Positions 7,256 to 7,480 of a stretch of 64,000 nucleotides of DNA are shown one piece after another. Numbering within the stretch: the stretch's first letter is position 1; every line of letters begins with the position of its first letter. A model generated the notes under the pieces. It ran no database searches. It was not told the origin of the DNA and was given only the letters and a program-made list of their open reading frames with translations. Position numbers and translations under genes: made by a program. The DNA is from Kineococcus mangrovi (GTDB taxonomy: Bacteria; Actinomycetota; Actinomycetes; Actinomycetales; Kineococcaceae). Location: NCBI RefSeq assembly GCF_041320705.1, contig NZ_JBGGTQ010000003.1, positions 248,001-312,000 on the forward strand, given 5' to 3'.

Positions 7256-7369
7256 TCAGGCCGCGGGCGACGTCCTCCGGCACGTCGAGGAGCCCGGGCG
7301 ACAGGCCATGGAGGCTGTGCGCGCGAGGTCGACGTGGTAGCGCCGGGTGAGCTGGGTGCAGCTGTCCAC
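7256..7369 (-). CDS. Short leader peptide (LTRRxHVDL...C type) in the leader of the sulfur operon
   Basis: A 37-codon reading frame starting at GTG 7369 with an ideal GGAGG site seven bases upstream (7377-7381). The peptide contains LTRRYHVDLARTASMACR and a second cysteine at residue 30. Actinobacterial leader peptides upstream of sulfur and cysteine genes share the pattern LTxRRHVDLxRxxSAxC; the family assignment is from memory of that pattern. Ribosome stalling at the Cys codons would be a way to sense cysteine. Its ribosome binding site uses the last two G of the riboswitch P1 strand, so SAM binding could also block its translation. It stops 119 nt before the binding-protein start. The leader role is inferred from position and motif. 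Confidence 0.72.
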   Translation of the reverse strand: MDSCTQLTRRYHVDLARTASMACRPGSSTCRRTSPAA

Positions 7370-7379
7370 TACGAGTCCT

Positions 7380-7464
7380 CCATCGCCCCTGGCGGGAGCA
7401 CCTGCCGCTCGCGCGGTGGTTGCTGTGGCGTCGTCGAGCCAGGTCTCTCGGCCACTCTGGATGG
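7380..7464 (-). promoter_or_regulatory. SAM riboswitch (S-box, SAM-I/SAM-IV superfamily), compact form
   Basis: Read on the minus strand, P1 is CCATC (7464-7460) pairing with GATGG (7384-7380). Then come CAGAGTGGCCGAGAGAC, a GTGGC/GCCAC P2 pairing, the conserved GCAACC, a P3 hairpin CCGC-GCGA-GCGG, and GGTGCTCCC before the closing strand. These are the conserved blocks of the S-box core in the right order and spacing (AGAG..GG, GAGGGAC, GCAACC, GGTGC, GATG). The arm after GGTGC is short (CCC-GCCA-GGG), unlike a full SAM-I P4. The 3' P1 strand runs directly into GGAGG, the ribosome binding site of the leader peptide, pointing to translational control. It lies upstream of transporter and desulfurising oxygenase genes. 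Confidence 0.8.
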
Positions 7465-7474
7465 TGTTGCAGCG

Positions 7475-7480
7475 AGCGTA
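7475..7480 (-). promoter_or_regulatory. Candidate -10 element of the sulfur operon
   Basis: TACGCT on the minus strand places a transcript start about seven bases downstream, near 7468, just ahead of the riboswitch P1 helix. No convincing -35 hexamer is seen at the usual spacing, so the call rests on position and the TANNNT match. Confidence 0.45.

Follow-up and report, generated by a model that had tools for sequence, protein, structure and literature searches.

SAM-I riboswitches adjoining putative cysteine leader peptides in Kineococcus mangrovi and related actinobacteria

SAM-I riboswitches followed directly by a short ORF of the actinobacterial cysteine leader type are a recurrent architecture in Kineococcus mangrovi and its relatives and not a product of chance. 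On slightly better than even terms, we read this arrangement as a two-input sulfur sensor in series, in which the SAM-I switch would act first and the cysteine leader second. A broader reading, held tentatively and at a little under even terms, is that a class-wide actinobacterial cysteine sensor (Arg, Asp-Leu and a Cys nine residues past the Asp, here termed Asp+9, with UGU as stall codon) was placed behind two SAM riboswitch classes in Kineococcus and relatives, which would create an AND gate for sulfur scavenging that responds to low SAM together with low cysteine. Each part is known; what appears to be new is the recurrent coupling of the SAM switch to a cysteine leader and the UGU codon rule. 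No report of a SAM riboswitch combined with a cysteine leader, or of the UGU rule, was found in the literature searched, outside of which subscription journals mostly fell.

Riboswitch, leader and operon of the window

All coordinates refer to the window, the whole 64,000-nt stretch of K. mangrovi DNA that was analyzed, and the riboswitch locus within it is labeled L004. The original prediction had placed a SAM riboswitch on the minus strand and had proposed a covariance search of 7370-7470 (-), which returned a SAM-I aptamer (Rfam RF00162) at 7467-7377 (-) that spans the full model and scored above gathering (53.6 against 44.4 bits, E 1.6e-9 for the window). It was the sole SAM-I match in the window. 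The predicted -10 element was likewise present as a -10-like hexamer, TACGCT (7480-7475, -), whose end lies 7 nt from the aptamer 5' end. At -19 to -6 of the aptamer 5' end the pattern TANNNT occurred in 48 of the 90 family loci compared to a mean of 0.06 in shifted windows, and in 58/81 order loci, which are the better-scoring among the matches listed, compared to a mean of 1.6.

The two strands of P1, CCATC (7464-7460, -) and GATGG (7384-7380, -), are each present in 90/90 family aptamers. In agreement with the predicted run of GATGG into GGAGG and on to the GTG of a leader peptide, the Shine-Dalgarno sequence of the leader, GGAGG (7381-7377, -), begins with the last two G of GATGG and so reaches into P1, and a 7-nt spacer separates GGAGG from the GTG start codon (7369-7367, -). 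An RBS within the P1 3' strand, which is the criterion for direct translational control by SAM-I, was found in the window, and P1 of the predicted SAM-I riboswitch overlaps the RBS of the leader; control of peptide translation by the riboswitch is predicted from this anatomy. The core columns of the aptamer were invariant across 22 aligned actinobacterial aptamers, and two-sided changes with pairing kept were observed in 8/24 predicted pairs of the aptamer alignment. Since P1 is nearly invariant, covariation gives no support to this helix. When folded freely, the window aptamer was no more stable than its shuffles, and P1 was part of the centroid and absent from the optimum. P4, described earlier as unusually short, is short in relation to the Rfam model but not in relation to its relatives, as the P4 segment of the 22 aligned aptamers differs from that of the window by 0 or 1 nt.

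The leader ORF of 37 codons plus stop (7369-7256, -) is kept in congeners and translates as VDSCTQLTRRYHVDLARTASMACRPGSSTCRRTSPAA, followed by the stop. Its peptide carries the motif of NCBIfam NF042934 (cis_reg_atten, 'putative leader peptide') with a Cys at Asp+9, RRYHVDLARTASMAC, and this Cys is encoded by TGT (7303-7301, -), in line with the codon rule detailed below. Because the match (22.8 bits, E 5e-5) is under the curated cut-off of 27, the peptide resembles cis_reg_atten without being counted among its members; two Cys-rich leader models of NCBIfam matched it weakly. cis_reg_atten is a known family of actinobacterial leader peptides. NF042934 was matched above cut-off somewhere in 7/12 family genomes. 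The gap from the leader stop to the ATG of the binding-protein gene measures 119 nt (7255-7137, -) and is rich in C, with a (C-G)/(C+G) value of 0.40 when the last 14 nt are excluded.

The operon behind this gap encodes a CUT1-type solute-binding protein (7136-5757, -; PF01547 2.1e-35, matching sugar-binding proteins in PDB), two sugar-type ABC permeases that are UgpA-like (5760-4795, -) and MalG/GlcU-like (4798-3968, -) and score under the equivalog cut-off, an NtaA/DmoA-family FMN-dependent monooxygenase (3944-2559, -; TIGR03860, 579 bits with a cut-off of 279.7), and a DszC/SfnB-like oxidoreductase (2518-1346, -; NF043015 1.2e-87 and TIGR04022 1.6e-77, both under cut-off). These profile matches fit sulfur-acquisition genes and bear out the earlier description as a CUT1 transporter with desulfurizing monooxygenases. 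Sulfoquinovose uptake was considered and rejected: the binding protein matches SmoF (E 9.7e-17), yet four other sequences match better.

The closest named relatives of the binding-protein gene belong to Kineococcus vitellinus (86%) and K. siccus (75%). For the original prediction, relatives that keep the operon while losing the switch blocks would have counted against the riboswitch, and the loci gave a divided answer on this point. Switch and leader are kept before the same binding-protein gene in six congener loci (L081, L083, L085, L086, L091 and L124), and the same leader is common to L124 and L010 of K. siccus, but neither switch nor leader was detected in 38/42 binding-protein relatives by a pattern search of the loci that applied a looser SAM-core pattern, with Rfam run on 15/42. 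Among these 38, L009 (86% identical) has only 32 nt of upstream sequence, while the other 37 are 42-69% identical and a few of them also have less than 2 kb upstream.

Recurrence in the family and order and spread through the class

The 4.36-Mb genome containing the window exhibited eight SAM-I matches (Rfam), with L003, L004 (window), L005 and L007 leading into HVDL-type peptides, L001, L006 and L008 leading directly into genes, and L002 leading into a mini-ORF that overlaps metF. Across 12 family genomes there were 90 matches, 87 above gathering and three (L130, L131 and L132) below. Under a fixed rule, an HVDL-type short ORF was located directly behind SAM-I in 41/90 of these, compared to 1/8600 shuffled downstream trials. 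Sorting by eye yielded the same 41 HVDL leaders along with 38 switches directly on a gene and 9 metF mini-ORFs, the rest being L071 (Cys mini-ORF overlapping metF) and L106 (ambiguous). The order sample consisted of 82 non-family SAM-I matches, the better-scoring among the matches listed; 12 of these 82 had an HVDL-type leader directly behind the switch, and these 12 fall in four other families. Cys ORFs lacking the HVDL motif (e.g. L139, L140 and L211) were left out of this count; L139 (G026) is a SAM-I followed by a Cys-rich ORF without this motif, ending LTCRCCL.

The second riboswitch class, SAM-IV, was present on the same strand directly upstream of NF042934-type leaders in L219, L220, L226, L228 and L258. 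Divergent pairs were observed as well, with two SAM-I back to back in L154 (G078:C30 25482-25777) and two SAM-IV in L258. At the aptamer 3' end of L007 and L104 two candidate P1 3' strands follow each other, GATGGGAG and then GATGGAGC, and the leader ATG lies inside the second.

Similar leaders also exist without a switch. The comparison was limited to the 43 family NF042934 matches that reached E 0.003 or better, and RF00162 was found within 200 nt upstream in 17 of them. The remaining 26 comprise six without a locus and 20 with a locus that was examined, and these 20 divide into 12 with TANNNT positioned as for a leaderless ORF, four with SAM-IV and four with neither. As many of these leaders have a leaderless-type promoter, the riboswitch looks like an added gate. 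In a class sample, NF042934 was matched at E 0.01 or better in 215/296 genomes compared to 0/14 controls; at E up to 1, 6/14 control genomes match too. Among 40 class loci, which like the 30 class loci used for the codon counts below are best-scoring NF042934 matches and not a random draw, Rfam identified one SAM riboswitch upstream on the same strand, the SAM-I before the leader of L293, which is outside the order. SAM-IV was present on the strand opposite to the leader in L284, while SAM-like patterns in the class loci L280 and L295 were not supported by Rfam. With a SAM switch in 1/40 class loci, gating by SAM appears to have been added locally to a sensor that is itself widespread.

Peptide consensus and the cysteine codon

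The 52 peptides behind SAM-I share the consensus LxRRRHVDLxRxxSxxCR, and 43/52 match NF042934 at E 0.1 or better. R10 and D14 are invariant and L15 and C23 are present in 90% or more, all at fixed spacing. For codon counts, the Asp+9 register was set as nine residues past the last Asp-Leu/Phe/His; 67 leaders were collected, of which 13 without this motif and three without a Cys at Asp+9 were left out, giving 51. The Asp+9 codon was TGT in 48/51 and TGC in 3/51, compared to TGT in 3/47 other Cys codons of the same leaders and in 20/266 Cys codons of 103 gene-like ORFs from the family loci and the window. At Asp+2, Cys was encoded by TGC in 19/19. Leaders that had been collected by the codon-blind protein model (20 from the family, three of them without a Cys at the register, and 30 from the class) showed TGT at Asp+9 in 17/17 and 30/30, respectively, and a further class sample in 39/40, with TGT in 3/42 other Cys codons. 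The remaining Cys codons of the 30 class loci, many of which have poly-Cys leaders, were mixed (35 TGT and 61 TGC). HVDL leaders without any Cys codon were seen behind SAM-I in L052 and L053.

CAC (His) and GAC (Asp) are the usual codons of a GC-rich genome, and they were used in 29/29 and 53/54 cases, respectively. Synonymous variation was seen near Asp+9 in the codons of Arg and Ser and in most of those for Val and Leu. Because these neighbors vary while TGT opposes the preference of the genome, the peptide is selected as a peptide and the Asp+9 codon as a codon; as the leaders are related, the codon counts are not independent. UGU would be explained most simply if the codon that does the sensing had to be read slowly, by wobble pairing, while a structural role may be an alternative reason.

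The same conservation could point to arrest by the nascent chain: the Arg, Asp and Leu that precede the Cys by 8-13 residues would act within the exit tunnel, and what is sensed might be cysteine or another sulfur compound instead of tRNA charging. The fixed spacing of R10, D14, L15 and C23 and the synonymous variation in their codons speak for such an arrest, but a pure peptide effect would not predict a codon rule and the poly-Cys leaders seen in the class fit codon starvation better, and we consider this explanation unlikely.

Proposed mechanism and relation to known systems

In the proposed sensor in series, the transcript would start near the aptamer 5' end, as suggested by the -10-like hexamer. 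On binding of SAM, a P1 of 5 bp would close over the first two Shine-Dalgarno G and the leader would stay untranslated, while at low SAM ribosomes would enter the leader; the anatomy for this step is present, and switching is assumed by analogy to published SAM-I riboswitches with the RBS in P1. The leader would then sense cysteine in the manner of the actinobacterial cis_reg_atten peptides, and scarcity of charged tRNA-Cys would lead to a stall at the conserved UGU, a step suggested by the codon constraint that was observed. The stalled ribosome would permit expression of the operon. This is the weakest step of the scheme; protection of the C-rich gap from Rho is the most likely route, more so than exposure of the RBS of the gene itself. 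Expression of this operon for the uptake and oxidation of organosulfur compounds would be confined to conditions in which SAM and cysteine are both low.

The folding data concern this last step. With a ribosome stalled at the last Cys, which differs from the Asp+9 Cys in L004, L091 and L115, the mean accessibility of the gene RBS in 54 leader-to-gene stretches was 0.51 before and 0.51 after the modeled stall, and in the window it changed from 0.51 to 0.56. Release of the downstream RBS by the stalled ribosome was not convincing in these folds, with a gain >0.2 in 1/54. A consistent hairpin at the Cys codon was not found across the 54 leaders (mean z -0.50 and z < -1.5 in 10/54, with control values of -0.13 and 6/54), and a hairpin starting at UGU, clear in the metY-type loci L007, L104 and L114, was weak in general. 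Inspection of the window, L085 and L091 showed GCTCC of the leader able to pair with GGAGC of the gene; this pairing was absent in L081, L083 and L086 and was set aside. In the window gap, no run of T of the kind expected behind the hairpin of a classical terminator was noted by reading. For 36 leaders the gap had a C-G skew of 0.37, compared to -0.01 in the sequence preceding the promoter and 0.20 at the beginning of the gene, and a C-rich, G-poor gap may fit Rho, although the evidence is weak. Rho was proposed for mycobacterial cys leaders by Seliverstov and colleagues, who called the proposal weak (PMC1262725).

Two explanations would dispense with cysteine sensing or with the peptide altogether, and we regard both as quite improbable and equally so. 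The leader could be a mere relay, in which the switch gates leader translation and the operon is reached by coupling or reinitiation. Mini-ORFs behind SAM-I do overlap the metF start by ATGA/GTGA in 17/17 picked cases, and Mycobacterium tuberculosis ppe2, located behind a B12 riboswitch, works in this way (PMC11260477), but the 54 Cys or HVDL leaders lie 41-202 nt ahead of their genes, the window leader 119 nt, a distance that is long for reinitiation, and a relay leaves the conserved motif and the TGT rule unexplained. The riboswitch could also repress without any role for the peptide if SAM produced an untranslated leader and Rho or decay then removed the transcript. The C-rich gap agrees with this, as more RNA would be open to Rho if the leader were not translated, but the peptide and its TGT are conserved also where a SAM riboswitch was not found, and SAM control does not depend on a leader, as 38/90 family switches, sorted by eye, are followed directly by a gene. 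It is very improbable that the short ORF is no more than a chance reading frame and that the switch has some other target: although the peptide of the window scores below the cut-off of NF042934, conservation in congeners, the shared Shine-Dalgarno and start geometry, the 41/90 compared to 1/8600 trials and the TGT rule all oppose it.

Cysteine leader ORFs are reportedly also a subject of Canestrari 2020. The peptides of the series proposed here are of the conserved RR-HVDL-C type of NCBIfam NF042934, NF042933 (Ms5788A) and NF042936. The comparisons that follow draw on portions of the cited sources. As in SAM-I (S-box) riboswitches with the RBS on the P1 3' side (RF00162; PMC2258182), the aptamer class is the same and translational control would require no added expression platform, but the ORF predicted to be controlled in the window is a leader peptide and not a metabolic gene as in PMC2258182. 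Like the actinobacterial cysteine leaders (PMC1262725 and PMC4633059), the window ORF is short, has a Cys close to its end and precedes sulfur genes. The published mycobacterial leaders are, in these portions, described as leaderless, whereas the window leader starts from a Shine-Dalgarno sequence inside a SAM riboswitch. As proposed for the window, a riboswitch controls translation of an upstream ORF that the gene requires in M. tuberculosis ppe2, where the B12 riboswitch acts through uPPE2 (PMC11260477), but this system involves B12, an AUGA overlap and reinitiation where the window has SAM and a gap, and in the portion available uPPE2 is not described as an amino-acid sensor. The Xanthomonas SAM-I riboswitch (PMC7270179) reportedly has a second input linked to translation, as is proposed here; this input is uncharged initiator tRNA, reportedly sensed by the riboswitch itself and not via a leader peptide. 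The uORFC-8-2 cysS attenuator of Rhodobacterales (PMC8632094) is a uORF with conserved Cys codons and a proposed cysteine attenuator, as is proposed here; its codons are mostly UGC in contrast to the UGU rule, it has an intrinsic terminator, and no riboswitch is mentioned in the portion available.

The two-input sensor would place two known RNA-level sensors, an aptamer for a metabolite and a translated sensor for an amino acid, within a single leader, which would read sulfur metabolism at two of its ends. At 41/90 SAM-I matches in one family the coupling is frequent enough for study as natural logic. The fixed UGU provides a cheap handle on widespread cysteine leaders, in which a synonymous change from UGU to UGC should matter.

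Other short ORFs were also observed behind SAM-I. The metF mini-ORFs, whose stop overlaps the metF start, were picked from the family (L002, L054, L055, L062, L063, L066, L067, L068, L071 and L089) and the order (L151, L152, L159, L160, L161, L170 and L204); they lack the HVDL motif, 3/17 peptides contain a Cys (L071, L151 and L152), and by analogy they may act as a relay like the one in ppe2. In L017 (4601-4760) and L021 (4698-4860), SAM-I is followed by an 8-codon ORF (e.g. VSSCMPLR) and then the binding-protein gene, so that adjacent Cys and Met codons are found in place of the HVDL leader, and similar 8-codon Cys/Met ORFs are present in L140, L144, L145 and L195.
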